Shown here: piece after piece, positions 26,951 to 60,780 of the stretch
Numbering within the stretch: position 1 is the stretch's first letter
Layout: every line of letters starts with the position of its first letter
Source: a virus
Direction: 5' to 3' (one strand)
DNA: 64,000 bases
IMG/VR virus record: IMGVR_UViG_3300021197_001743
Location: 56,039 to 120,038 of that record
The notes under the pieces: generated by a model
Database searches by the model: none
Told to the model about the DNA's origin: nothing
What the model saw: the letters and a program-made list of their open reading frames with translations, nothing else
Made by a program: the position numbers and the translations under genes

Positions 26951-28159
26951 ATGCCGAAATTTAAAGGAAAAAACTCAATAAGATCTGCTTTTCGTTTAGG
27001 AAGAGAAAGAGCGAAATACAATCTCGAGGCATTCCCAGAGAACGATGGGCTTGGCCGTGAACAGATTGTCGACTTTAACTTTGCTGAGCGTTCGTTATAT
27101 GGAAAGGTCGATCGTCAATTAAATCCAGTAATACCAAATGAAGACTTTATCGTTCCAATAATCTCTGGAGACGGATCCAACAACACTGTATTGGCAATGA
27201 ATTTCGTGGCAGACCAATTTCGAGACTTAGAGAAACATTTTGTAAGAGCATGTCAACTTGGTCTCATAACTACAGACGATCCAGTTTTATCAACCCTTGT
27301 TGCAAAGAGAGGGTACGTAAACCCTAAACAAAGTTATTTAAATTATGTACAAAACGTGATGTCGACCTACACAAACGAATTTTTAAAGCCAAAAGCATCA
27401 CAAATCAATAGCTTTGATGATTTTCTTAATGCATTTCCGGATTTCATGCTGAACATGAGGGATATTTTTCCCGTTACCTATTCTGGTTTTCAAAGATCAA
27501 GTCAAAGTTCCATTTTTTCCTCCGGTTTAGCGATTGACGTTGCTGGTATTCCGTTTGACGACGACGAAAAGAAGCAAAACCTTCTCTTTGATAGCCCAGC
27601 GTTTCAATATTATATCAATCTAGCAAAACAATATGGGTTTTCAGTTAACAAACGAAATCCCGGTGTTTTAATTTCAGACGTTGCAAGTCCAGTTACTCTA
27701 TTATACCGCAGAAAGTATGCATTGTCAAGCGTTAATTCAATTTTTTCTTTACAATATTCAAAAACTCTTCATGAAGATATCAGTTTGTTATCTAAACTCC
27801 TGTCGGACTGGTATAATTCTTTCATTGCCAAGAGTCCATTCATAAGAACTTTTGATGTCTGCTCAGGTAAAACTATTACAAGTGTACAAATAAAAAAAGG
27901 TATTAATAATATAAATAATAATAATATAATTAATAATAATATAATATATTTATATATAAACATTAGAAATATAGAAGAAAGAGAATCTTATACAAATATA
28001 GAAATAGATAATATATATTTAAATGCAATTAGGTTAAAGAAAATATCAGAAGATAGCATGCTCCAATATATCGACGATCAATTCAAAGCAAAGTACAATT
28101 TGCAAGATGGAACACTAACTTATTACAAAAAAAAGAATGAAAAAAGACTTGACAACTGA
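26951..28159 (+). CDS. baseplate-region structural protein with low-complexity insertion
   Basis: 402 residues, family not recognised. The first 300 residues look like an ordinary folded phage structural protein, rich in Asp/Phe/Ser (ADQFRDLEKHFVRACQLG; SFDDFLNAFPDFMLNMRDIFP). From about residue 316 a run of Asn/Ile (GINNINNNNIINNNII) encoded by pure A/T DNA interrupts it, followed by an Asn/Ile/Tyr/Glu-rich stretch to about residue 360, before apparently normal sequence resumes. It starts one base after the large hub gene ends and is the last gene of the virion block. Function inferred from position only. Confidence 0.65.
   Translation: MPKFKGKNSIRSAFRLGRERAKYNLEAFPENDGLGREQIVDFNFAERSLYGKVDRQLNPVIPNEDFIVPIISGDGSNNTVLAMNFVADQFRDLEKHFVRACQLGLITTDDPVLSTLVAKRGYVNPKQSYLNYVQNVMSTYTNEFLKPKASQINSFDDFLNAFPDFMLNMRDIFPVTYSGFQRSSQSSIFSSGLAIDVAGIPFDDDEKKQNLLFDSPAFQYYINLAKQYGFSVNKRNPGVLISDVASPVTLLYRRKYALSSVNSIFSLQYSKTLHEDISLLSKLLSDWYNSFIAKSPFIRTFDVCSGKTITSVQIKKGINNINNNNIINNNIIYLYINIRNIEERESYTNIEIDNIYLNAIRLKKISEDSMLQYIDDQFKAKYNLQDGTLTYYKKKNEKRLDN
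27901..27960. repeat. 60-base uninterrupted A/T tract within a coding region
   Basis: Positions 27901-27960 contain no G or C. The stretch is made of TAATAA/ATAAT-type repeats and stays in frame, encoding Asn and Ile runs. It lies about 190 bases upstream of the promoter for the DNA polymerase gene, at the junction of late and early blocks. It may be a slippage-expanded repeat, and could also serve as an easily melted element; neither is shown. Confidence 0.8.
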
Positions 28160-28177
28160 CCCTTAACAGGCTATATT
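28149..28177 (+). promoter_or_regulatory. sigma70-type promoter, polA-like gene
   Basis: TTGACA (28149-28154), 17 bp, TATATT (28172-28177), in the gcTATATTATA context. It overlaps the end of the upstream structural gene and drives the polymerase gene 30 bases on. First of twelve matching promoters. Confidence 0.85.
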
Positions 28178-28206: not shown

Positions 28207-29400
28207 ATGATATTTCAAGTCTTAGACGACAAGAAAGATTGCAGAGGCATATATACAAATGGAAATTTTATTTATGATAGAATTCCCAAATCAGCCAACA
28301 GAACTTGGGCTTACTCAGACCACATTTCAGACCGCTTCATTGAATACGGTTATTTGTGGTCCGAAGGCAAATCCATTCAAGAAATATGCCCAGAACATCT
28401 TAAATTGCGATTAACTACACACGAAAATAGAATGAAAGGGCACTTTAAATCTTTTCATACGGCAAAAATCAACTTTGAAGACATCTGCTTTTATGAGTTG
28501 GTACCAGACAAACAATTACGACACTACTTTGAAATTAAAAATGAAGTATGTGAGTGGGTTTTTGAAAATTACCCAAAACCAAGGAATTATTCTTTTCTAC
28601 ATGATTCATACATAACAATTCAGCAAATAGCGAAAAATCCAGTTAATTTAAATTTGCATAAACTATATAGCTTTGCTAAAGAAGATTTGAAAGCCAAAAG
28701 TCTTTTAAGGTGGACCAAGGAGAACCCTCGTCATACTGTGAATTATGACCTTTTCGGAAGCATCACCGGTAGAATTACTACTAAAACAGGAAGTTTTCCG
28801 ATAATGAACCTTAAGAAAGAGATAAGATCAATATTAAAACCAAACCTAGACTGCTTCCTTGAGCTTGACTTCAATGCAGCAGAAATAAGAACAATGATTT
28901 CCCTAATGGGACAACAACAACCACAGGAGGATATTCATGAGTGGAACATCAAAAACATATTTAAAGAAGATATCAGCAGAGCACAAGCAAAACAAAAATT
29001 CTTTGCATGGCTCTATAACTCGGAAAACAAAACTATCAATTCTGAACTCTATAGCAAAGACATTCTCGTCGAAAAGTTTTACAAAGAAGGGCAAATACGG
29101 ACCCCGTTTGGCAGGAGGACAGTATGCGATAGATTTCACGCCCTCAACTACCTGTTGCAATCCGCTTCCTCCGACAATTGTATGGACCGAGTCAACAAAA
29201 TTGAAAGATTCTTAAGAGACAGGAGAAGTTATGTCGCCTTTACTATACACGATTGTGTTATTATTGACCTTCATCGGGACGATCGCTCTCTTATTCCACA
29301 ATTGAAGGAGATCTTTGAGGACACTAAATTGGGACAATTCCCTTCTTCTTGCCACCTAGGTAAAGATTTTGGAAGCATGAGAGAGTTTAAATGGAACTAA
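28207..29400 (+). CDS. minimal family A DNA polymerase
   Basis: 397 residues, much shorter than PolI (928) or T7 polymerase (704). Polymerase landmarks are all visible: SITGRIT (185-191); motif A DFNAAEIR with D221; motif B R258-K262-F266-Y270 at the canonical spacing, with Asn where the usual Gly follows; the Q of NYLLQSASSD (about 318); and motif C IHDC with H348-D349. The Glu that usually follows HD is Cys here. The 170-residue N-terminus shows no 3'-5' exonuclease carboxylate motifs, so the protein is a palm-fingers unit without proofreading. A separate flap nuclease is encoded at 37027 and a DnaE at 57319. Likely role: gap filling or lagging-strand maturation. An ATG with ggagga is used. 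Confidence 0.85.
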   Translation: MIFQVLDDKKDCRGIYTNGNFIYDRIPKSANRTWAYSDHISDRFIEYGYLWSEGKSIQEICPEHLKLRLTTHENRMKGHFKSFHTAKINFEDICFYELVPDKQLRHYFEIKNEVCEWVFENYPKPRNYSFLHDSYITIQQIAKNPVNLNLHKLYSFAKEDLKAKSLLRWTKENPRHTVNYDLFGSITGRITTKTGSFPIMNLKKEIRSILKPNLDCFLELDFNAAEIRTMISLMGQQQPQEDIHEWNIKNIFKEDISRAQAKQKFFAWLYNSENKTINSELYSKDILVEKFYKEGQIRTPFGRRTVCDRFHALNYLLQSASSDNCMDRVNKIERFLRDRRSYVAFTIHDCVIIDLHRDDRSLIPQLKEIFEDTKLGQFPSSCHLGKDFGSMREFKWN

Positions 29401-29609
29401 AGTATGGCGATCTAATCATCACTCTCCCAAAAGTTGAAAAAATAAAAGCAATTTTAACACAACTAACTGGAGGAATGATTGGTGTCGTCGTTGAAGCGAG
29501 CGCGGAATTTGATAAGATAAAAGTTTATGGCATCCTAATCGATGGAGAAATTTTTTATCTATTTGAAGATGAAATAGAAAAATTGGAGGACGACGATGAA
29601 GATCGGTGA
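29391..29609 (+). CDS. small GDLI-type beta-barrel-like protein
   Basis: 72 residues, overlapping the polymerase gene by 10 bases. It starts MELKYGDLIITLP and continues with alternating hydrophobic strands (GMIGVVVEAS; KIKVYGILIDGEIFYLF) and an acidic end. The GDLI/GDLV opening followed by G-I/V-I/V strands recurs in three other small genes (29596, 50987, 51201), suggesting a family of SH3-like small barrels. Function unknown. Confidence 0.65.
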   Translation: MELKYGDLIITLPKVEKIKAILTQLTGGMIGVVVEASAEFDKIKVYGILIDGEIFYLFEDEIEKLEDDDEDR

Positions 29610-29793
29610 TTTAGTTATAACAAAGCCATGTTCTTGGTTTTATGGCTCAGAGGACAAAGCCAAAAGGATTGGGATCATATTAGAAATTTTCGAAGCACCA
29701 GCTCTTGGATATGTAGCCAACTGTTGGTTTGAGCATCTCGGCTATTTTCAAATAAACGTTGAAGGCATTGAATTATTGGAGGAAGAATGTTAA
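29596..29793 (+). CDS. small GDLV-type beta-barrel-like protein
   Basis: 65 residues, overlapping both neighbours. It opens MKIGDLVITKP and continues with RIGIILEIFEAP and YFQINVEGIELL. It is a paralogue in pattern of the preceding gene and of those at 50987 and 51201. The ATG follows a ttggagga site. Function unknown. Confidence 0.65.
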   Translation: MKIGDLVITKPCSWFYGSEDKAKRIGIILEIFEAPALGYVANCWFEHLGYFQINVEGIELLEEEC

Positions 29794-30602
29794 TTATTGG
29801 TTTAGGACAAGCAGGATGTAATATCGCAAAGTTATTCGAACAACATGAACAATACCATGTTGAGTTGCTAGATGAAGGAAAAGGAATTAAAAAACAAAAA
29901 ACAGTCGAAGGTTATGATACAATTAATTATAAACCTCGCAAGAAAGGCATCAAATCGGCCACTGACGGCATTCTGTTCGTTTGTGGGAGTGGTAAGATAG
30001 CCGGAGCCACACTGCGTGTTCTAGAGGGTCTCAAGCACGTTAAAATGCAAGTTGTTTATGTTATTCCGGACCTCGAGTACTCTTCTCTCAAGGAACAGTT
30101 GAGACATCGAGTGCATTATAACGTCTTACAGCAATATGCTCGCTCTGGAATGGTCGAGGAACTAATGCTAATAGATAATAAGATATTAATTAATATAGTG
30201 GGTCATGGTACAATATATGATTATTATAAGAAAGTAAATCATTACATATATACTGCAATTCACACATTAAACTATTGCAATAATGTGAAAGCAGAATTTG
30301 GAGTCCTTCATACTCCTAGAGAAATCAGCAGGATAACAACTCTCGGCTATGGGCTACTAGAAAAAAATGAAGAAAAGTTGTTCTTTTCACTTGACAACAT
30401 AACTGAGACGAGTTATATTATAAGTATAAATGAAGATGATCTGGTTAATGATATTTCTGTTTTGCCTAATGTGAAAGCAATGGCGAAAGAGTGTAAAGAC
30501 TTAGGAAGAGAAACTTCATTTGCTATTTGGGCAACAGAAGAAGCCGAGAGTTACTACTATACCAAATATTATACACACGTTATACAACAGGAGAACGAAT
30601 GA
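29787..30602 (+). CDS. divergent tubulin/FtsZ-superfamily protein
   Basis: 271 residues. The N-terminus LIIGLGQAGCNIAKLF (2-17) matches the first nucleotide-binding loop of tubulins and FtsZ (compare GQxGNQI). ATDGILFVCGSGKIAGATLRVLEGL (58-82, in part) aligns with the region carrying the signature GGGTGTG loop, here reduced to CGSGKIAG. QYARSGMVEELMLIDNKIL (116-134 region) aligns with the FtsZ segment ending IPNDKLL. IYTAIHTLN...EISRITTLGYGLL (154-191) aligns with the H7/T7 region, but the catalytic NxDxxD is replaced by VLHTPRE. Length is below PhuZ (about 315) and TubZ (about 420). So the fold is probable, while GTP hydrolysis is doubtful. Phage tubulins position DNA or capsids; that role is inference. 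A ggagga site supports the ATG. Confidence 0.65.
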   Translation: MLIIGLGQAGCNIAKLFEQHEQYHVELLDEGKGIKKQKTVEGYDTINYKPRKKGIKSATDGILFVCGSGKIAGATLRVLEGLKHVKMQVVYVIPDLEYSSLKEQLRHRVHYNVLQQYARSGMVEELMLIDNKILINIVGHGTIYDYYKKVNHYIYTAIHTLNYCNNVKAEFGVLHTPREISRITTLGYGLLEKNEEKLFFSLDNITETSYIISINEDDLVNDISVLPNVKAMAKECKDLGRETSFAIWATEEAESYYYTKYYTHVIQQENE

Positions 30603-30973: not shown

Positions 30974-31741
30974 ATGGCTATAAATATAGAAGCGATGCGT
31001 GCCAAACTTAATGCATCTAAAAACGGCAACAAAGGTCAATCAAACAGTACGAAATGGCGACCAACTCAAGGAGACCAAACCATTCGTATCCTTCCTACAG
31101 CGGACGGAGACCCCTTTAAGGAGTTCCACTTCCATTATAATGTAGGCAAAAACCCCGGGATTATGTGCCCCAAACGAAATCATGGAGAAGACTGTCCAAT
31201 TTGTGAATTTGCGTCTAAATGTTGGCGTGAAGGAGTAGAGAACGACGATAGTACGCTTAAAAATGAAGCAAAGAAGCTTTTTAGTCGTAAGCGCTATTAC
31301 TCTCCAATTATCGTTCGCGGCAAGGAAACCGAGGGTGTAAAAGTTTGGTCTTATGGGAAGACCGCGTATGAAACCTTGCTGGGTTATGTCCTCGACCCTG
31401 ACTATGGTGATATCACAGACCCTGACGTGGGCACTGATATTGTTCTCAATTATGACGTACCGGGAACTCCGGGGTCCTTCCCTAAGACCACCCTTAAACC
31501 TCGACGACGACCGAGTGTTCTTTGCGACGATGCAGTAGCAGATTGCGATACATTAATTCAATCGATCCCAGATATTGGAAGCTTATTCGATAGAAAGACA
31601 ACAGAAGATGTTCAAGCATACCTTGACGATTTTCTCTCTGGCGACTCTTCTTCGGAAAGCAGATCTACTGAAACAACTAAATATGCAAAAAACAACACTA
31701 ATGTCGATGAGGAATTTCAAAAATTCATGAATAACGATTAG
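30974..31741 (+). CDS. single-stranded DNA-binding protein (gp32-like)
   Basis: 255 residues (T4 gp32 is 301). N-terminus basic and polar, then KWRPTQGDQTIRILPTADGDPFKEFHFHYN (in part) opening the OB-fold core. A zinc site of the gp32 type follows: C-P-K-R-N-H...C-P-I-C (about residues 75-90). The RKRYYSPIIVRG block (about 106-117) and the acidic, Ser-rich C-terminal tail (DDFLSGDSSSESR... FQKFMNND) are likewise typical, the tail recruiting replication partners. It coats ssDNA for replication and recombination with the UvsX, helicase and polymerase encoded nearby. Strong own promoter; terminator follows. Confidence 0.9.
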   Translation: MAINIEAMRAKLNASKNGNKGQSNSTKWRPTQGDQTIRILPTADGDPFKEFHFHYNVGKNPGIMCPKRNHGEDCPICEFASKCWREGVENDDSTLKNEAKKLFSRKRYYSPIIVRGKETEGVKVWSYGKTAYETLLGYVLDPDYGDITDPDVGTDIVLNYDVPGTPGSFPKTTLKPRRRPSVLCDDAVADCDTLIQSIPDIGSLFDRKTTEDVQAYLDDFLSGDSSSESRSTETTKYAKNNTNVDEEFQKFMNND

Positions 31742-31921: not shown

Positions 31922-33067
31922 ATGTCTATTAGACCACAGTACACTGCGAAAGTCTCACATCAGTATAAACAAGAGACCCAACACCGTAAGGTTAGATATT
32001 CGGTTGAAGAAAACCTTTTAGCATACCCAGACATTCTAAATGTATTTTTGGAGTGGAGACTAAAGCAATCGGTGAGATCTATTGCCACATTCGAAAGCGT
32101 GATGCATGAAGACTATCAATTCCCTCTTTTCGATATAAGAACAGCGGAAATCAGAGAAGATTGGGGCCAAAGAAACCCTCTTCTGGAGTCCGGCAGGCAA
32201 GCAAAAATTCTTGGTATGGCTAAGACTTTCAACATTAAATTGATTGAACCCATCAGCGTTGATTATATTGTAGACGAAGATGCTTTTATAATTAGAGATG
32301 GCGGTGGTAGAGCCCACGCAGCATTTATGAATGGTATTTATAAAATACCAGCGATTGTTAGAATCATTTCCTCAGCAGAAGAAAGTCGTGAACTGTTTGT
32401 TACACAAGATAAAAATGCTGCATCAATTTCCGGTTATGATAAATTCCTCCAGTATCTTGCTGATCCTACTAGCAATTATCACAACAAGTCTTGTGATACT
32501 TTTGCTATCTCGAGATCTTCCGGCATTTGCTTGCATCATAGCCAAAAATCTAAGAGCAATCCTTTAGTAGAAGGAATTGGAACACTACAGAGAATAATTA
32601 ACAGCTGTGGTGGCGACCAGAAAGGTACGAAATGGGGGAAGAAATCTGCTCCTAATTTAGTTAAGTCTATTGATATACTTAAAAATTGTTTTCCTAACAA
32701 TGATGAGTTTCCTGTGTCCGTCTTGTATGCTCTAACAGCTTTTGTTGAAGTTTCCAAACACAGAATTCCATCAGGTGAGAAAGGGTTAAATCGCTTGATC
32801 GATTTTGTTAATTTGGTTAAGGCTTCTTCTGCCGAACTTGAAGATATTAACAATTGGGTTCGAGTTCTGAAGTTTGACTCTTCTAATCATTATGATACTT
32901 ATGGAGCATCCGCTCTGATGAAAAAATGGAATGAAGTATTCAAGAATGCTAATAAAGGACGAAAGCCTGCAGATTTTTATTCTTTTGTTAAGTGGGATGA
33001 TTGGGAAATAGAGAGCGCTAGTAATAAGATTTTCTCGTTTGCTAGAGATCCTTCTCTTTATTCATAA
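31922..33067 (+). CDS. ParB/sulfiredoxin-fold protein
   Basis: 381 residues. The region PISVDYIVDEDAFIIRDGGGRAHAAFMNGIYKIPAIVRII (about residues 110-150; key elements DGGGRAHAAF and IPAIVR) matches the ParB-N/Srx-like fold, in which a DGxHRxxA-type loop binds nucleotide. The C-terminal 200 residues are helical and unassigned. Proteins with this fold include DNA-binding partition factors and CTP/ATP-dependent enzymes; which applies here is unknown. It lies between the ssb-like and AlaRS-like genes. An aaggag site supports the ATG. Confidence 0.6.
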   Translation: MSIRPQYTAKVSHQYKQETQHRKVRYSVEENLLAYPDILNVFLEWRLKQSVRSIATFESVMHEDYQFPLFDIRTAEIREDWGQRNPLLESGRQAKILGMAKTFNIKLIEPISVDYIVDEDAFIIRDGGGRAHAAFMNGIYKIPAIVRIISSAEESRELFVTQDKNAASISGYDKFLQYLADPTSNYHNKSCDTFAISRSSGICLHHSQKSKSNPLVEGIGTLQRIINSCGGDQKGTKWGKKSAPNLVKSIDILKNCFPNNDEFPVSVLYALTAFVEVSKHRIPSGEKGLNRLIDFVNLVKASSAELEDINNWVRVLKFDSSNHYDTYGASALMKKWNEVFKNANKGRKPADFYSFVKWDDWEIESASNKIFSFARDPSLYS

Positions 33068-33101: not shown

Positions 33102-33998
33102 GTGCCTCACGTTATAGAACCGAGTGAGCAACAAATGAAGAACATAGTTGAAATATATAGCAAGTTTTGCAGAGACAAAGGAATAAAGTATCAGTTGGAC
33201 GATACTGTTTGTCCGTATGATAACACAACTCTCTTTTGCCCAGCAGGCATGCAACAGTTTAAAAAGAAGTTCAACTCGGAAGAAACGGGAACAGTCGCAA
33301 ATGTTCAATCTTGTATTAGAATGAACGACTTGGAAGAAATTGGTGATGGTACTCATTATCTTTATTTTGATATGATTGGGCTGTTCTCGTTTCGCTCTAT
33401 GTCCGTCCAGCAAGCAGTTGACTTCTGGATGGAATTCCTTGAAGATATTCTAGAGATAAAAGTCGACTACATAACAATACACCCAGACAAGCTCGAAGAG
33501 TGGAAAAGTCTTTATGATAACTACGATGTGGAGATCAGAGAAGATGAAGAGTGTAAATGGACAGACGGACAGATCGGAGGATACTGCACTGAGTTCTATA
33601 AGGATGACGTGGAGATTGGAAACATTGTCAATCCATTGGGCAATTGTATCGATGTTGGCTTCGGCTTACAAAGACTAAATATGTTTGTGAATGGAAGAAA
33701 CGAAGAGACCAAAGAAGAAATACTTGTTCTAACTTGTGAAAAGCTTTTATACTCTGGCTACTATCCAAGCAACAAGGAACAAGGGTATGTGTTCAGGAAA
33801 CTGTTGAGAGAGCTTTATAGAATTCAATCAACTTGGGATAACGAACACTATCAGAAAGAGAAAGAGCGCCAAGACAAAGTAATTAAGCGCTATAACAAAG
33901 ACAAAAATAAGGCCAAATATCAGGGTAAATCAAAAGAGTGGTGGTTCGACACCATGGGAGTTGATATTGACTTTATCGAGAGTATAGAAAATAAATAA
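33102..33998 (+). CDS. free-standing alanyl-tRNA synthetase-like catalytic domain
   Basis: 298 residues beginning at GTG (GGGAGG lies about 12 bases upstream). The order of landmarks is that of AlaRS: an N-terminal IVEIYSKFCRDKGIKY helix; LFCPAGMQQFK (44-54; AlaRS has LFTNAGMNQFK); motif 2 VQSCIRMNDLEEIG (68-81) with R73; HYLYFDMIGLFSF (85-97; compare HHTFFEMLGNFSFG); DGQIGGYCTEFY (155-166; compare GPCGPCSEIYYD); and motif 3 DVGFGLQRL (184-192) with R191. So the class II aminoacyl-adenylate site appears intact. It lacks most of the tRNA-recognition region, the editing domain and C-Ala (full AlaRS is about 875). The last 80 residues are basic and helical. It could make Ala-AMP, charge an RNA, or modify another molecule. 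Confidence 0.85.
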   Translation: MPHVIEPSEQQMKNIVEIYSKFCRDKGIKYQLDDTVCPYDNTTLFCPAGMQQFKKKFNSEETGTVANVQSCIRMNDLEEIGDGTHYLYFDMIGLFSFRSMSVQQAVDFWMEFLEDILEIKVDYITIHPDKLEEWKSLYDNYDVEIREDEECKWTDGQIGGYCTEFYKDDVEIGNIVNPLGNCIDVGFGLQRLNMFVNGRNEETKEEILVLTCEKLLYSGYYPSNKEQGYVFRKLLRELYRIQSTWDNEHYQKEKERQDKVIKRYNKDKNKAKYQGKSKEWWFDTMGVDIDFIESIENK

Positions 33999-34082: not shown

Positions 34083-34106
34083 ACAGTACTTAACAAGGAG
34101 GTGCCT

Positions 34107-35228
34107 TTGGGCAAAGTAATTAAAATGGCTACAAAACCGGGAAAAATAGACATCAGTGCAATGAAAAAATTCGTCAACAAAAAAGTTGGCATGGACGTTG
34201 CTCATGATCTTCGGGAAGACAATCCCACCGAAGTAAAACAATGGATCCCTACGGGATCTAGATGGCTTGACTCTATTACAGTTAGAGGAAAGTATGGCGG
34301 AATACCCGTCGGCAAGATTACTGAAATTGCAGGTTTGAGCTCTGCTGGTAAATCTTTTATGGCTGTGCAAATAGCCGCAAATGCTCAAAAAATGGGTCAA
34401 ACAGTTGTCTATTTCGACGCTGAAAGTGCTATTGACCCTGTTTTCTTAACTAATTCTGGTGTGGATATTGATGATAACTTTCTTTATGTGCAAGCGGTAT
34501 CAGTTGAGAAGACGTTAGAGACCATTGAGGACCTTTTGTCTGAATACTCAGAGACGCAATTCTTGTTTATTTGGGATAGTATTGCTGCTACCTCATCTGA
34601 GAAGGAAATAGAATCTGATTTCAATCCCCAATCCACAATGGCAGTTAAGCCTCGCATTTTCGCAAAGGCTTTTCCTAAACTAACAATCCCTCTCGCTAAT
34701 CAACAGTGTACTCTTGTGTTGATTAACCAGTTGAAAACCAATATCACAAGCAACATTGCAGAGAAATTTACGACACCTTACGTCGCCCCCGGCGGAAAGG
34801 CAATAGAATATTTTTGTTCAATGCGTGTTTGGCTAACGAAACGTAAAGCAAAGGCAGCATATGTTACTGATGATACTGGATTGAGGGTAGGCTCTGAGGT
34901 GAAGGTCAAGATTGAGAAATCTAGATTTGGAACTGAAGGTCGCACTTGTGGCTTCAAGATACTTTGGGGAGACAAAGTTGGAATACAAGATGAAGAGTCT
35001 TGGTTAGAGGCCATAAGACTATCTGGCACCGATAGATATCGAGTTGGTGGTGGTTGGTACTACCTCACTGACTCAAAAGGCAAGGAGCATAAGTTCCGAG
35101 CCTCTGAGTGGGTCTCAAAGCTCACTGATAAAAAGTTTCGTTCGTTAGTGTTCGAAATAATGGATGAAGAGATTATCAAAAAGTTTGATACTGAGGGTAA
35201 AAACTTCTCTATTGAAGATGATAAATAA
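34107..35228 (+). CDS. RecA/UvsX-family recombinase
   Basis: 373 residues from TTG 34107. This start is chosen because AAGGAGG (34095-34101) lies 5 bases upstream; the GTG at 34101 overlaps that site and the ATG at 34125 is too far. Walker A AGLSSAGKSF (about 71-80), Walker B FLFIWDSIAA (about 150-159), the LVLINQLKTNI segment (about 208-218) and the GGKAIEYFCSMRVWL block are typical of the RecA core. The N-terminal domain is short, as in UvsX. It catalyses strand exchange in recombination-dependent replication and repair with the gp32-like protein. A strong terminator follows. Confidence 0.92.
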   Translation: MGKVIKMATKPGKIDISAMKKFVNKKVGMDVAHDLREDNPTEVKQWIPTGSRWLDSITVRGKYGGIPVGKITEIAGLSSAGKSFMAVQIAANAQKMGQTVVYFDAESAIDPVFLTNSGVDIDDNFLYVQAVSVEKTLETIEDLLSEYSETQFLFIWDSIAATSSEKEIESDFNPQSTMAVKPRIFAKAFPKLTIPLANQQCTLVLINQLKTNITSNIAEKFTTPYVAPGGKAIEYFCSMRVWLTKRKAKAAYVTDDTGLRVGSEVKVKIEKSRFGTEGRTCGFKILWGDKVGIQDEESWLEAIRLSGTDRYRVGGGWYYLTDSKGKEHKFRASEWVSKLTDKKFRSLVFEIMDEEIIKKFDTEGKNFSIEDDK

Positions 35229-41536: not shown

Positions 41537-41815
41537 ATGTATTTAGAGCCAAAAAATAGACACCTTCTCGTCCTTCCGATGGATGATGAAGAAAAAGAGA
41601 AAACTGTAATAGTATTGCCGGGAGATTATAAGAAACCAATTTCGCCCTATGTTACCTGCGATATATTAGGAATATCAGAAGATTGCGAAATAGGAGTTTC
41701 TATCGGCGATCGTATTGTAGTAGAAAGAAGAATGCTGCAAGAGATAAAAGCAATAGGGGAAACTAATTACCTAGTATTGGAAAATTATGTTTACGGGAGA
41801 CTAAAAGATGAATAA
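41537..41815 (+). CDS. GroES/gp31-like co-chaperonin
   Basis: 92 residues from ATG 41537 (GGAGGA at 41528-41533). MYLEPKNRHLLVLPMDDEEKEKTVIVLPGDYK reproduces the GroES opening strand and loop (PLxDRVLVKP...GGIILP). VTCDILGISEDCEIGVSIGDRIVVERRMLQEIKAIGETNYLVLENYVYGRL (quoted only for comparison in pieces: SIGDRIVVE; NYLVLENYVYGRL) corresponds to VGDKVLF...YLIVREDDILAVL. The mobile-loop region is short (PGDYKKPI). In T4, gp31 replaces GroES to fold gp23; the capsid here is gp23-like, so that is the inferred role. Confidence 0.65.
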   Translation: MYLEPKNRHLLVLPMDDEEKEKTVIVLPGDYKKPISPYVTCDILGISEDCEIGVSIGDRIVVERRMLQEIKAIGETNYLVLENYVYGRLKDE

Positions 41816-42578
41816 AGAATTATTAAAAAATATGATAAAAAAGGTTATATTAGAGAACAGACAGAAGCCTGTTTTACTTGAAGAGCCATTGAGAGAAATG
41901 GCAACGTTTGCATCAGCAAAACATAAAATAAATGAATTGATGGTACCATTTTTAGCAGTATCAGCGTTTAGATCTGAGAGAAGCTATAGAAAAAATATGG
42001 AAATGGACAGAAAAATCAGAGAAGAAATATTGAAGCCTAGTGGTTATTCTTACACAATTGTGGAAGGTGGATTCCTTGAGAAGCCTCGTGATGATCAAGG
42101 TGTCGAGATAGAAGATTCAGAAGGTACCGAGGTCAATGAAAAGACTTATTTAGTTTTTGATAAAGAAACTAGACCCGGCGGCAAGTTGAGCATGGGCTTG
42201 TTTGAATTGGGAAAAAAGATAGCAAAAGCGTCAAATCAACATAGCTTTTCCTATGGATACCCTAGAACAATTCAAGACCCTAACCAAGAAGAGCCTACAC
42301 GAGAGATGTTTATTGCCATTTATGAACCTGACGCTCAAGCCCCCGGCGATGCTCATAGAGTTAAGGAGCCATGGGCAGGGCCTTGGTCTTCATACGAAGA
42401 GATGGAACACGACGACATATATTATACCAAAGTTAGAGGTTCCAGAGGTAAATTCGCAGAACAAAAAATACAAGAAGCATTGGACATTAATCCAAAGAGC
42501 GTCTTTGAGGCCATGAAAAAAGAGCACCAAATTAAGTATTGGAAGAGCTTAAAAGAACGCTATAATAGAGGTGAATGA
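41808..42578 (+). CDS. DUF3293-like protein with VILEN N-terminal signature
   Basis: 256 residues. The leader LLKNMIKKVILENRQK belongs to the group seen at 35339, 36102 and 53952. Residues about 50-100 (PFLAVSAFRSERSYRKNMEMDR, then LKPSGYSYTIVEGGFLEK, in pieces) resemble DUF3293 proteins, where an ISAxxP segment, an N-rich helix and a GG-x-E loop occur in this order. HSFSYGYP follows. Function of that family is unknown. Overlaps both neighbours (8 and 4 bases). Confidence 0.55.
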   Translation: MNKELLKNMIKKVILENRQKPVLLEEPLREMATFASAKHKINELMVPFLAVSAFRSERSYRKNMEMDRKIREEILKPSGYSYTIVEGGFLEKPRDDQGVEIEDSEGTEVNEKTYLVFDKETRPGGKLSMGLFELGKKIAKASNQHSFSYGYPRTIQDPNQEEPTREMFIAIYEPDAQAPGDAHRVKEPWAGPWSSYEEMEHDDIYYTKVRGSRGKFAEQKIQEALDINPKSVFEAMKKEHQIKYWKSLKERYNRGE

Positions 42579-49064: not shown

Positions 49065-49396
49065 GGGCTCGCAATGGCTTCGACGGGTTAGAATCAAGGG
49101 GAGAGTGCATGCAGGCGTGAATCAGCCTTAATCGTTCAAATTTTTATAAACGCAAACAATAATTTGTTTTTCGACGAAGTCGCTTTAGCGGCTTAATCGG
49201 GTGGTCGCCTCGAACCATCTATCCAAGAGAGGCAAAACAACAGGACAGTTGTAAAAATCACATCTCCTTCGGCCACGGACTATGGAGAATAAAACGCAGT
49301 GGATACCTCGCTAGGAGGGAAATAACTAGACAAGCATGTGAATGACTCAAACTAAGACTAGCGCGGACAGGGGTTCGATTCCCCTCGAGTCCACCA
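49065..49396 (+). ncRNA. ssrA: transfer-messenger RNA (tmRNA)
   Basis: 332 bases. The 5' end GGGCTCGCAATGGCTTCGAC and 3' end CGAGTCCACCA pair to form the tRNA-like acceptor, with G3-U70 as required for alanine charging and an encoded CCA. The T-arm is CAGGGGTTCGATTCCCCTC-like (in part). The reading frame resumes at GCA 49152 and ends at TAA 49194, giving the tag ANNNLFFDEVALAA, whose ALAA end is the usual protease signal. One-piece architecture. It rescues stalled ribosomes and tags their products. The downstream small gene begins 15 bases after the 3' end. Confidence 0.97.
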
Positions 49397-55979: not shown

Positions 55980-57110
55980 ATGCTATTATTTTTATCACTG
56001 CTTGCAAGTCAAGCAGAGGACTTATCACTATCAGAAACATCATACACCGGAGCGTCCATTCTTATTGGAGACTCGGATGTTATTTTTGAGGAAACCCTAA
56101 ACCAAGATTATGAAACAGATCCACATGCGTATTCCTTCTTTGAGGGAAACACTCTGTATCTGGGGAACAGCGACGACGAAGGAAACTCCGTTGATGCTAT
56201 CATAGAATTCTTTTGGTTTCGCTCGTCAATTGACCGCGGTTCTGACTTCTACGTCGGTGTTATCAAGGCGAGATCAACTCCGGGCAAAGATTGTTTCCTG
56301 TCTGATTGTCACCTATGGGCCGACGAATACCAAGACTGGGGAGAGTACCCTGTGATAAGCGTAGAGGCCTTCACAGACGTCTCTAGAGAACAAGGAGCCT
56401 TCCGGTGGGACTGGTCTGTTCCGTTTGAAAATTACGGCATTGATGCTTACGGGCAAGTGTCTTTCTCCAACCAATATGGTATCGGAGGAAACGCCGAAGG
56501 CTCTGTTATGGCTCATGGAGAATACCAGATCAGCGAAGAGGGTGATGTTAAGGCAGCAGGAGACGTTCAGGTCAAAGGCTACATCGGCACAGAATATAGA
56601 GTGCAGACACAATATGACGTTACGCTTTACGAATGGGATGTATATGTAAGCGGTCGAGCAGACTTGATGGCATGGGATATGTATCTCAACCTTGGAGCAC
56701 GCGACGATCAATCAGCATACCATGAATACTTCCTCGCAATTCAAGTTGAAGAAGGAGAGGCCTTCATGCTCGACGAACTTAACATCATGGGCAATTTCGA
56801 CATGGGTTGGTGGAACCCTATCCACAAAGAGCTAGGAGTGTCTCTTCAGGACATCATAATCTCCCAACCTTACTACGAGCCTGCTATAGACACTGGAGAC
56901 GAAGAGGAGCCTTCTGACGAACCTGTGGACACCGGTGAACCTGAAGACACTGCAACCCCAGAACCAGAGGAAGAAGCAGAAGAAGACACCCAAGAAGAGG
57001 AACTGGAGCTTGATGAAGGCGTTCCTGTTAAATCCTGCTCGTCTTCCACAACATTACCAGAGTGGATTTTACTACTCGCACCATTTGCATTCATGCGGAG
57101 GAAAAGATGA
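55980..57110 (+). CDS. secreted protein with MYXO-CTERM-like C-terminal anchor
   Basis: 376 residues. A short signal peptide (LLLFLSLLASQA, cleavage after A) leads to a beta-rich domain (20-300) with regular Tyr/Trp/Asp strands (YGIDAYGQVSFSNQYGIGG; YDVTLYEWDVYVSG). Then an acidic linker (DTGDEEEPSDEPVDTGEPED, about 304-323, and more Glu). The end is SCSSSTTLPEWILLLAPFAF-MRRKR: Cys, a hydrophobic helix and a basic cluster, the layout of MYXO-CTERM sorting signals in Myxococcota. Such proteins are anchored at the cell surface after cleavage near Cys. A host-derived gene or one adapted to that host is inferred. ATGA overlap with the next gene. Confidence 0.75.
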   Translation: MLLFLSLLASQAEDLSLSETSYTGASILIGDSDVIFEETLNQDYETDPHAYSFFEGNTLYLGNSDDEGNSVDAIIEFFWFRSSIDRGSDFYVGVIKARSTPGKDCFLSDCHLWADEYQDWGEYPVISVEAFTDVSREQGAFRWDWSVPFENYGIDAYGQVSFSNQYGIGGNAEGSVMAHGEYQISEEGDVKAAGDVQVKGYIGTEYRVQTQYDVTLYEWDVYVSGRADLMAWDMYLNLGARDDQSAYHEYFLAIQVEEGEAFMLDELNIMGNFDMGWWNPIHKELGVSLQDIIISQPYYEPAIDTGDEEEPSDEPVDTGEPEDTATPEPEEEAEEDTQEEELELDEGVPVKSCSSSTTLPEWILLLAPFAFMRRKR

Positions 57111-57318: not shown

Positions 57319-60300
57319 ATGACAATAAGAAAAGAACAATTCGTTGGGCTACACGCTCATTCGGGCGTTGGATCGCCATTTGATGGCTTTGGACATCCGC
57401 AACAACACATGAACTATGCTTACGAAAACGGAAGCACAGCCCTAGCTCTAACCGACCATGGAAATATGAACGGCTTAGCCTATCAGGTATTGCATGCTAA
57501 GAAGATGAAGAAGGAAGGAAAAGACTTCAAGCCAATCTTTGGTGTGGAAGCTTACTTCATCGAGTCCGTCGCGGATTGGAAGGTCAAGCTTGACGAACAC
57601 CGCGCAGACAAAACCAAATCAAAAAAGATTGATGACGACCGTAGCGGGACCACCGTTGAAAACGAAGCGGAGTCAAAGCAGTCCACCAAATCAGAATTGA
57701 ACCGCAAGCGACACATGGTACTTCTTGCTATGAACCAAGAAGGCCTCAATAACATCTTCAAGTTGGTGTCCCAATCATATGATGGAGACTACTTCTATCG
57801 CAAGCCTCGTATCGACCTTGACCTCTTAGAGAAGCATAGTGAGGGCGTTATCGCTCTCTCCGCTTGTCTCGGTGGTGTCTATGCTGGCTGCTACTGGGAA
57901 CACCGAGAGACCGGTTCCGAGGCTGTTGTGGATGCTATGCGCTCTATAACGAAGAATATGTTAAGCATCTTTGGCGACCGTTGGTACGGTGAACTTCAAT
58001 GGAATGCAATTCCGGAACAACACGAATTGAACAATTACGTCATTCAAATGCACCAAGAATTCGGCATACCTCTGGTATCAACGTGCGACTCTCATTACCC
58101 AACTCCAGACGCTTGGAACGATCGAGAACTATATAAGAAGATAGGTTGGCTCGGAAAGGGCAAGCCTGAATGGATGTCAGATGAGTTACCTGAAGGTGTG
58201 GATGAAATCGGGTATGAACTTTACCCAAAGAACGGCGAACAAATGTGGGCCGATTATAAAAGATACACTAACATCATACACACCGACATTACTTACGATG
58301 ACGACATCGTTCGTCAGTCAATGTTGGAGACGGTCAATATTGCTTTTGAGAGGATTGATAGTTTTCTCCCAGATAACACTGTGCGCTTGCCTGATTTTGT
58401 CGTACCTGCTGGCCATCACCCTGCAGAATACTTGGCTCAATTATCCTTCGAGGGTCTATTTGAGATTATGGCATCGCGTTCTGTCGAACGAGGGTCGACC
58501 ACTTGGGTGGATTACACCGATAGACTGAAGCATGAACTCGAAGTCATATCAGACAGAGGGTTCTCTAAATATTTCTTGACGATGAAGTCAATCACGGACA
58601 AAACAAATGAAGTACAACTCGCAGGACCCGGCCGAGGATCAGCAGCAGGATCGCTGGTGGCTTATGCACTGGGCATTACACAAGTGGATCCAATTAAGTA
58701 TGGTCTACTATTCTCTCGTTTCCTCCGAGCGGACGCCACGGATTATCCTGACATTGACTACGATGTCTCTGATCCTATGGTGCTCAAGGAGCTGTTAATC
58801 AATGAGTGGGGTTCCAACACTGTTGTGCCTATCTCCAACTTCAATACACTACAATTGAAGTCTCTTATCAAAGACATCTCAAAGTTCTATGACATCCCGT
58901 TTCCCGAAGTCAACAAGGTTACCAACACTATGCTCAAGGAAGCAACTCCTCTTGCAAAGAAGAAGCATGGTATCCGTGCAGGAATCTATGCCCCGACTTT
59001 TGAAGAGGTATGTGAGTTCTCCGAGACACTGCAAAAGTTCTTCTCTGACCATCCAAAGGTTAAATCACACGTCGAAGGCCTAATGGGTCAAATCCGTTCA
59101 ACCTCTCGTCATGCTGGAGGTGTTGTAATTGGCTCTGAACTGGATAAGTACATGCCATTAATTGCTTCCAAGGGCGTACGACAAACTCCTTGGTCTGAAG
59201 GTATGAATGTACGCCAACTAGAGCCAATGGGTTTCATCAAGTTTGATATTCTTGGTCTTGCAACCCTTCGTATGATGGAAGAAGCAATCGAAAGAATTCT
59301 TCAGAGGCACCATGGTATCGAGAACCCAACGTTCGCTGATGTTAAGAAATATTATGATGAGAACCTTCATCCTGACAAGATCGATCTCAACGACCAGACA
59401 GTTTACAAAAACATCTTCCGCGCTGGTAAATGGATGGGCATCTTCCAATTCACAGAGAATGGAGCCCAAAGCCTTGCTAAGAGAGCACAGCCAAGATCCA
59501 TCATTGACTTGTCTGCTATCACTTCAATCTATCGTCCCGGCCCTCTATCGGCTGGTGTTGACAAGGCTTACATTAAAGCAATCCGTGATCCTATGTCTGT
59601 GAGTTATGAGAATGCGATTGTCGAAGAGATAACCAGTGAAACCAGTGGGTTTATGATCTTCCAAGAGCAAATTGCTCTTCTGGCTCATAAGCTTGGTAAA
59701 GACATCAATCTAGATGACGCCAATCTGCTGCGTAAACTCTTGACCAAGAAAGGCCTCGATGCTTCGAAACAAGCAAAGAAAGAAGAGATTATGACGAAGT
59801 TTGTTCAAGGTTGCATTGAGAAAGGCATAACTATGCGTTCTGCCGAGGAAATGTGGCAGAAGTTTGAGTACTTCTCTGGCTATGGCTTCAACAAGTCTCA
59901 CGCTGTTGCTTACTCAATCATTTCATATCAAACTGCTTGGTTAGCAACGTATTACAATGCAGAGTGGGCTTGTGCCTTCTTGGATAAGGAGCCTGAGTCT
60001 AGAAAAGAAAAGGCAATCAACATTGCTAAATCTTGGGGCTATACAATTAAGCCTTTGAACATTAACACCTCCGGTCGACGATGGACTGCTACTGGTAAAA
60101 GTACACTGGTAGCTCCACTGACAACCATCAAAGGTCTTGGTGATGCTGCAATTGATGAGATCATCGAGAAGCGCCCATTTACGTCCGTAGAGCATCTTTT
60201 GTTCGACGGTGGGGTGGTAGCAAGGAAACTCAACAAGAAGTCCTTAGACGCCCTCACAAGAGCCTCTGCGATGAATGATTTGATTGATGATAGGTTCTAT

Positions 60301-60780
60301 GGAGACAAGCATTTCTGGTCTGCCGTTGTTGTTGATAAGCCAAAGAACAAGAAGAAATTGAATGAAAACATCGAAAAATATCGCAAGGAAGGTTCTTTTA
60401 GTACAGCCGAGCTGATACAGAACACACAAGCATTGACGGGTATTTATCCAATTAACATGGTCATGACTGAAAGGGCGTTGAAGATTATAGAACATCATGT
60501 AGTACCTCCTCTTTCGGAGTACGACTCAGCACTTGGAGTGGCATGGTGCATCCCAACCAAAATTCATACGAAGAAAAGCAAAAATGGTAAATGGTTTTAC
60601 ACTATTGATGTGATCGACTCCAATTCGAAAGCTACCAAAATCCGCTGTTGGGGCGTAGATCCACAAAAGGACCTCATCTTTCTTAACAAGCCATATGTAC
60701 TTAAGCACCCAAGCTACAATGAAACTTGGGGTTTCTCGACATACGGCCGGGTTGACAAGAAGTGGATGATGATTGGGTAA
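57319..60780 (+). CDS. dnaE: DNA polymerase III alpha subunit-like, family C
   Basis: 1153 residues, full length (E. coli DnaE 1160). PHP domain at the N-terminus (FVGLHAHSGVGSPFDG; ALALTDHGNM). Palm: GPGRGSAAGSLVAYALGIT (about 436-454) and YPDIDYD (476-482) with two catalytic Asp; the third Asp is in FIKFDILGLATL (about 641). YRPGPL and a GYGFNKSHAVAYSIISYQTAWL block (about 855-876, in part) follow. A C-terminal OB fold (WFYTIDVIDSNSKATKIRCWG, in part) is present. One oddity is a charged insertion at about residues 90-135 (Lys/Asp/Glu/Ser-rich). It is likely the phage's main replicase, with the family A enzyme at 28207 in an auxiliary role. No clamp was identified in the window. Confidence 0.93.
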   Translation: MTIRKEQFVGLHAHSGVGSPFDGFGHPQQHMNYAYENGSTALALTDHGNMNGLAYQVLHAKKMKKEGKDFKPIFGVEAYFIESVADWKVKLDEHRADKTKSKKIDDDRSGTTVENEAESKQSTKSELNRKRHMVLLAMNQEGLNNIFKLVSQSYDGDYFYRKPRIDLDLLEKHSEGVIALSACLGGVYAGCYWEHRETGSEAVVDAMRSITKNMLSIFGDRWYGELQWNAIPEQHELNNYVIQMHQEFGIPLVSTCDSHYPTPDAWNDRELYKKIGWLGKGKPEWMSDELPEGVDEIGYELYPKNGEQMWADYKRYTNIIHTDITYDDDIVRQSMLETVNIAFERIDSFLPDNTVRLPDFVVPAGHHPAEYLAQLSFEGLFEIMASRSVERGSTTWVDYTDRLKHELEVISDRGFSKYFLTMKSITDKTNEVQLAGPGRGSAAGSLVAYALGITQVDPIKYGLLFSRFLRADATDYPDIDYDVSDPMVLKELLINEWGSNTVVPISNFNTLQLKSLIKDISKFYDIPFPEVNKVTNTMLKEATPLAKKKHGIRAGIYAPTFEEVCEFSETLQKFFSDHPKVKSHVEGLMGQIRSTSRHAGGVVIGSELDKYMPLIASKGVRQTPWSEGMNVRQLEPMGFIKFDILGLATLRMMEEAIERILQRHHGIENPTFADVKKYYDENLHPDKIDLNDQTVYKNIFRAGKWMGIFQFTENGAQSLAKRAQPRSIIDLSAITSIYRPGPLSAGVDKAYIKAIRDPMSVSYENAIVEEITSETSGFMIFQEQIALLAHKLGKDINLDDANLLRKLLTKKGLDASKQAKKEEIMTKFVQGCIEKGITMRSAEEMWQKFEYFSGYGFNKSHAVAYSIISYQTAWLATYYNAEWACAFLDKEPESRKEKAINIAKSWGYTIKPLNINTSGRRWTATGKSTLVAPLTTIKGLGDAAIDEIIEKRPFTSVEHLLFDGGVVARKLNKKSLDALTRASAMNDLIDDRFYGDKHFWSAVVVDKPKNKKKLNENIEKYRKEGSFSTAELIQNTQALTGIYPINMVMTERALKIIEHHVVPPLSEYDSALGVAWCIPTKIHTKKSKNGKWFYTIDVIDSNSKATKIRCWGVDPQKDLIFLNKPYVLKHPSYNETWGFSTYGRVDKKWMMIG

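Follow-up and report, generated by a model that had tools for sequence, protein, structure and literature searches.

A phage protein family with a predicted tubulin/FtsZ fold that lacks T7, H8 and H9 and is encoded beside a short DNA polymerase

The window, a stretch of 64,000 nucleotides (positions 56,039 to 120,038) of the 120-kb IMG/VR virus record IMGVR_UViG_3300021197_001743, encodes a 271-aa protein that is firmly predicted, from structure models of two family members, to adopt the tubulin/FtsZ fold with both of its domains. The guanine site of this superfamily is preserved but the T7 loop and helices H8 and H9 are absent, and the gene is consistently paired with that of a short DNA polymerase. 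From these features we infer a function, and the reading we favour, at about even confidence, is that of a guanine-nucleotide-binding, tubulin-fold replication accessory that is not a GTPase.

29787..30602, + strand: protein of 271 aa with a predicted tubulin/FtsZ fold, without T7, H8 and H9 (open reading frame scan, AlphaFold2 model, Foldseek, family alignment)

An uninterrupted ATG open reading frame of 271 codons occupies exactly 29787-30602 on the + strand, with a strong ribosome-binding sequence, GGAGGAAG, immediately before the ATG. Stops occur throughout the reverse strand of this interval, where no competing gene was found. The pieces that had led a sequence-only reading of this DNA to propose a divergent tubulin/FtsZ-like protein (GQAGCNI, CGSGKIAG, ARSGMVEELMLIDNKIL, LGYGLL and VLHTPRE) are all found in the translation. 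The frame is more than a chance one, since it has full-length homologues, ranging in identity from 79% down to about 27% (mean column identity 43-54%), and its substitutions are of the kind left by strong purifying selection, with a dN/dS of about 0.08-0.17 across nine pairs, in several of which dS exceeds 1 and is near saturation.

Fold assignment by sequence alone is ambiguous, with weak matches to TrkA_N, Tubulin and TubZ. Pfam and NCBIfam searches with the single window protein returned weak Rossmann-type matches only, and a PHROGs search returned nothing useful. Weak or sub-threshold Pfam TrkA_N matches are found in 32/72 family members, the best at 8.8e-6, and there is a match to a KtrA chain at 2.3e-4, which would suit an ordinary Rossmann-like nucleotide-binding protein of the TrkA_N/KtrA type and no tubulin; these similarities, however, span the N-terminal part only. 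Matches to PF00091 (Tubulin) occur in 11 of the 72 members, none of them significant (best E 0.0048). TubZ was the sole tubulin family with a profile match below 1e-3 (E 3.7e-5 with a 17-sequence profile), and since this match was gone with the wider 72-sequence profile we do not rely on it. The profile alignment with FtsZ, though weak, is in register over alignment columns 3-168, and hhalign aligned PhuZ to the N-terminal part with an E-value of 1.2e-4 and a probability of 55%; E-values for the FtsZ and PhuZ alignments are single-comparison values, and the probabilities are 55-58%.

The AlphaFold2 model of the window protein, built on an alignment of 72 homologues, has a pLDDT of 94.5 and a pTM of 0.92, and that of a distant member (28% identical), built on a different, partly overlapping alignment, has the same architecture (pLDDT 92.1, pTM 0.90). 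In Foldseek searches the best 50 PDB matches of the window model are all FtsZ or TubZ (best E 1.1e-10, >300 columns aligned), and the best 50 of the distant member's model are all FtsZ, TubZ or CetZ (best E 5.3e-12), with TM scores by query of 0.61-0.73 across the full chain for both models. The best viral structure matches are phage FtsZ/tubulin-like proteins. Both predicted models contain an N-terminal GTPase domain and a C-terminal activation domain joined by H7, and the strands that make up the tubulin C-terminal domain do follow H7. The sequence-only reading had proposed structure prediction and fold comparison as its check, and an unrelated Rossmann protein without that domain as the outcome that would speak against it; because the domain is present in the whole-chain FtsZ/TubZ matches, this is not what the two models show, and the tubulin-like assignment is borne out by the predicted fold. 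As far as prediction goes the TrkA_N/KtrA-type reading is refuted, and we consider it extremely improbable.

The elements that the family has kept include a T1 loop equivalent and the guanine site; one further conserved motif is not a signature of tubulin or FtsZ.

29799..29825, + strand: T1 phosphate-loop equivalent GLGQAGCNI, residues 5-13, which aligns with GVGGAGCN of FtsZ (family alignment)
30177..30179, + strand: N131, in 128/128 sequences, in register with the asparagine that follows strand S6 in FtsZ, where it is invariant and belongs to the guanine site (profile and family alignment)
30225..30239, + strand: YxxxN at the start of H7 (Y147, N151), guanine-site positions (model, alignment)
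30129..30149, + strand: QxYxRSG, residues 115-121, at the end of helix H5 (model, family alignment)

Within T1, G5 and G7 are found in 123/123 rows that have a residue there. The guanine-recognition residues after S6 and at H7 are present and in the FtsZ register, N151 in 127 of 128 members and a Y or F at position 147 in 122 of 128; we take the positions of N131 and N151 to be guanine contacts, as in FtsZ and tubulin. In the QxYxRSG motif Q115 and R119 are found in all 128 sequences and S120 in 127 of them, and by its conservation in the alignment this motif is a new signature of the family.

Other elements have been lost or altered.

29982..30005, + strand: T4-loop equivalent CGSGKIAG, residues 66-73, shorter than GGGTGTG of FtsZ (profile and family alignment)
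30285..30332, + strand: T7/H8 slot, residues 167-182, with no helix and no NxDxxD (DSSP, alignment columns)
30360..30395, + strand: EKNEEKLFFSLD, residues 192-203, between S7 and S8 in place of H9 (model, alignment columns)

In the model VLHTPRE forms residues 173-179, between helix H7 (148-166) and strand S7 (183-190), which is the T7/H8 position. NxDxxD is missing family-wide, with a loose match at best in 1/128 sequences and no pattern in the other 127, and there is no helix between H7 and S7, so that the NxDxxD plus H8 signature of an active GTPase is absent. H8 and H9 are absent from both AlphaFold2 models, and the segment that replaces H9 is conserved in the family as EKNEEKLFF(P/S)LD. 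The link from S2 to S4 has about 30 residues, against about 50 counted from FtsZ sequences, and the T3 gamma-phosphate loop is therefore missing or much reduced. T4 has the shorter family form CGxGx(I/V)(S/A)G and not the signature GGGTG(S/T)G, and in one clade (L210) T1 and T4 are both degenerate further, so nucleotide binding itself could be lost there. The altered GTP signature and altered catalytic loop that had been remarked on in the single sequence thus prove to be family-wide, and the loss runs deeper than had been noted: throughout the family it takes in T7, both helices H8 and H9, and the greater part of the T3 segment.

By its predicted fold, then, the window protein is a minimal and degenerate member of the tubulin/FtsZ superfamily that fails the signatures of active members (T4, T7 and PF00091), and it is neither PhuZ nor shown to be TubZ. 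Compared through PDB matches, TubZ (a plasmid and phage tubulin; PDB 2xka, 4ei7) has the same whole-chain fold, with a TM by query of about 0.7, and shares the YxxxN at H7 and the S6 asparagine; TubZ retains the GGGTGTG T4 loop, T7/H8 and a C-terminal tail, whereas the window protein has no T7/H8/H9 and a short tail. TubZ works with TubR and a centromere, while the partner gene here is a DNA polymerase; the neighbours with matches are polymerase, SSB and UvsX genes, and no TubR was recognised in their general annotation. FtsZ gives the best Foldseek matches (E 5e-12 and 1e-10), yet at 8-15% identity, and in contrast to FtsZ the window protein lacks T7/H8/H9, the N-terminal extension and the long C-terminal tail and has a shortened T3 region and T4 loop. 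PhuZ, the tubulin of phiKZ-like phages, is likewise phage-encoded and alignable in its N-terminal part, but it is found in nucleus-forming phages, and searches of the lineage's records (some incomplete) with a PhuZ profile and the phiKZ chimallin found nothing. The earlier statement that PhuZ keeps the catalytic motif holds, as the T7 aspartates D201 and D204 are invariant in PhuZ. The closest viral model is A0A6J5RW92, a 452-aa FtsZ-like protein of an uncultured Caudovirales phage (E 1.4e-11, TM by query 0.76), which was compared by model match and is 14% identical to the window protein.

The prokaryotic and phage tubulins that have been well studied form dynamic filaments and act as GTPases, with the T7 loop as their common catalytic element. 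In tubulin and FtsZ, GTP is hydrolysed when a subunit brings its T7 loop up to the nucleotide bound by its neighbour. Since T7 and H8 are absent here, no GTP hydrolysis is expected by the known mechanism. T7, the base of H8 and S9 make up the canonical longitudinal contact (PMC3678025); with T7 and H8 gone, its usual mode of formation is closed to this protein. A filament could nevertheless be built: PhuZ T7 mutants still polymerise, into nondynamic filaments (PMC7950403), and the TubZ catalytic mutant E200A still assembles (PMC5322520), so loss of T7 residues alone leaves filaments possible. The protein might then form a static or slow filament, polymerised with GTP through a rearranged longitudinal interface, that serves to position or cluster capsids or phage DNA under replication, much as PhuZ does, without hydrolysis-driven dynamics. 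The retained tubulin fold and guanine site would suit such a filament, and the conserved EKNEEKLFF(P/S)LD could serve as the new contact. Against this, both models lack the T7/H8 part of the canonical contact altogether, no adaptor or centromere protein was recognised adjoining the gene, and no relative of chimallin or PhuZ was found in the records searched; we regard a filament of this kind as unlikely, if still a serious contender.

The tubulin-like gene is part of a replication cluster. The gene order is short PolA, tubulin-like gene, gp32-like SSB, UvsX, exonuclease, DnaB helicase and ribonucleotide reductase, with the following features in the window.

28149..28177, + strand: sigma-70-like promoter TTGACA-17-TATATT just upstream of polA, 11/12 positions (consensus scan only)
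28207..29400, + strand: short family-A DNA polymerase, 397 aa, with conserved motifs A, B and C (PF00476 match marginally under the cut-off at E 7.6e-8; alignment, co-occurrence)
29391..29609, + strand: 72-aa frame that follows polA and precedes the tubulin-like gene, overlaps the frame on either side of it in the chain, with counterparts in nearest relatives only (open reading frame scan)
29596..29793, + strand: 65-aa frame overlapping the tubulin-like start by 7 nt, with no relative outside its own genome among the loci (open reading frame scan)
30974..31741, + strand: gp32-like single-strand DNA-binding protein, the downstream neighbour in 107/112 loci (phrog_1192 E 9.5e-29)
34101..35228, + strand: UvsX-like recombinase, further downstream, in 90/112 loci (phrog_97 E 4e-63)
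57319-60780, + strand: DnaE with PHP domain, 1153 aa, a separate large replicative polymerase (domain match)

In many relatives polA and the tubulin-like gene overlap by 4 nt, start on stop; in the window the two small frames lie between them, chained by overlaps. A reciprocal search with the PolA family found 72 new loci. In 68 of them the tubulin-like gene lies downstream, in most cases directly, and the other 4 end no more than 284 bases from the polymerase, so that the pairing holds in 68/68 testable loci. This constant pairing, which the sequence-only reading had missed, points to replication. Gene adjacency in phages does not prove a physical interaction between the tubulin-like protein and PolA, and distance-matrix co-evolution does not single out PolA (partial r 0.34 with polA, 0.37 with SSB). 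No exonuclease domain was recognised in the short PolA, and no relative of it was found in phage records. The genome thus carries two DNA polymerases of different families, the short family-A enzyme and DnaE. The T4-like background that had been described is supported by tail sheath, major head, gp32-like SSB and UvsX genes; it does not extend to the large replicative polymerase, which is DnaE. Between SSB and UvsX, at 31922-33067 (+), lies a gene whose 381-aa product weakly matches a ParB-like family (phrog_930 E 0.054) and of which no relatives were found in related loci.

Two further readings have been weighed. With the nucleotide face retained and the opposite face lost, the geometry would suit a cap or poison of host FtsZ, which the sequence-only reading had proposed along with a non-hydrolysing filament. 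Such a cap would attach by its nucleotide face to the T7 face of an FtsZ subunit and, lacking a T7 face of its own, stop growth there, blocking division early in infection. Phage inhibitors of FtsZ are common, for example T7 Gp0.4 and T5 Hdi (PMC13423816, PMC10714956), but inhibitors of this type are not known as tubulin-like, and the constant place in the replication cluster, with polymerase pairing in every testable locus, is easier to reconcile with a core function in replication than with an anti-host gene; we find the FtsZ cap improbable. A monomeric dGTP/GTP pocket might instead inform the phage polymerase or ribonucleotide reductase of the nucleotide supply. Invariant guanine-site residues in a protein that has lost its catalytic and polymer parts would suit such a sensor, and ribonucleotide reductase and thymidylate synthase genes do lie near the tubulin-like gene. 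The phosphate loops are, however, degenerate in one clade and no regulatory partner was identified, which leaves such a sensor with a distinctly small chance of being correct.

The tubulin-like family is large, unannotated and found in uncultivated T4-like phages. A single-protein query of IMG/VR viral contigs recovered 28 loci and an alignment query at least 574 relatives, on contigs that reach 194 kb. No match was found by tblastn of the window protein against 50,697 phage records, nor one that held up for two other family members against the same records; a match in Mycobacterium phage Myrna (E 2, tblastn) is antisense to an annotated gene and a Listeria contig match (E 9) reads as an apparent alcohol dehydrogenase, and both were rejected as relatives. 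No description of the family was found in the open-access literature, an absence that does not prove novelty. Among 84,980 species genomes the single match is a WOR-3 MAG (bin CP070664.1), in which the lineage's phage replication genes, with two full tmRNA matches, stand in a 2.8-Mb bin labelled chromosome. Phage tail-sheath pieces lie about 0.5 Mb from the tubulin-like gene, and this is probably a joined bin with phage contigs; for these reasons we claim no host. The tubulin-like gene is present in one copy per record in 10/10 records, most of them incomplete, and no second tubulin was detected with PF00091 in nine phage records, again mostly incomplete. An apparent second gene in one locus (L012:1951-2337) is a decayed partial copy (KNEEKLFYPLD...INERCY segment) joined to an SSB-like reading frame, either a recombination remnant or an assembly error, and was rejected as a true second copy.

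Elsewhere in the window, 49065-49396 (+) holds a phage-encoded tmRNA with the tag ANNNLFFDEVALAA (Rfam RF00023 E 8e-34); since it is also matched in full in each of the three longest contigs among the related phages searched, it is a trait of the lineage. The genome also carries tRNA-Ala and, at 33102-33998 (+), a short alanyl-tRNA-synthetase-like protein of 298 aa (PF01411 E 6.5e-21 over residues 16-133), which possibly serves the charging of the tmRNA or tRNA-Ala and was not found in eight related phage contigs. The frame at 41808-42578 (+) weakly resembles an S-adenosylmethionine lyase family (PF23780, under the cut-off at E 0.0024) and is a possible anti-restriction gene.

Returning to the replication accessory, a bound nucleotide is argued from the preserved guanine site, and the replication role from the ever-present polymerase gene and from SSB and UvsX as neighbours. 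The protein would carry a long-lived guanine-nucleotide ligand, be it GTP, GDP or dGTP. With the catalytic loop that acts in trans and the customary bottom interface gone, it would neither hydrolyse GTP nor treadmill. Acting early in infection, it would bind the short polymerase, the SSB-coated template or both, and as a monomer or static oligomer it may place, scaffold or regulate the short polymerase.

A large, conserved family with the tubulin fold and guanine site but without T7, H8 and H9 would reveal the capabilities of this fold in the absence of hydrolysis, and through its strict pairing with a polymerase one can directly test whether a tubulin-like protein is linked to DNA synthesis. 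The family also shows that phage tubulin-like proteins are common outside the nucleus-forming phages, yet missed by current family models. More tentatively, and with the balance against it, the family may represent a tubulin-fold protein that has moved out of the cytoskeleton to become an accessory subunit of a DNA polymerase, loaded with guanine nucleotide that it does not hydrolyse and conserved across a large lineage of uncultivated phages.
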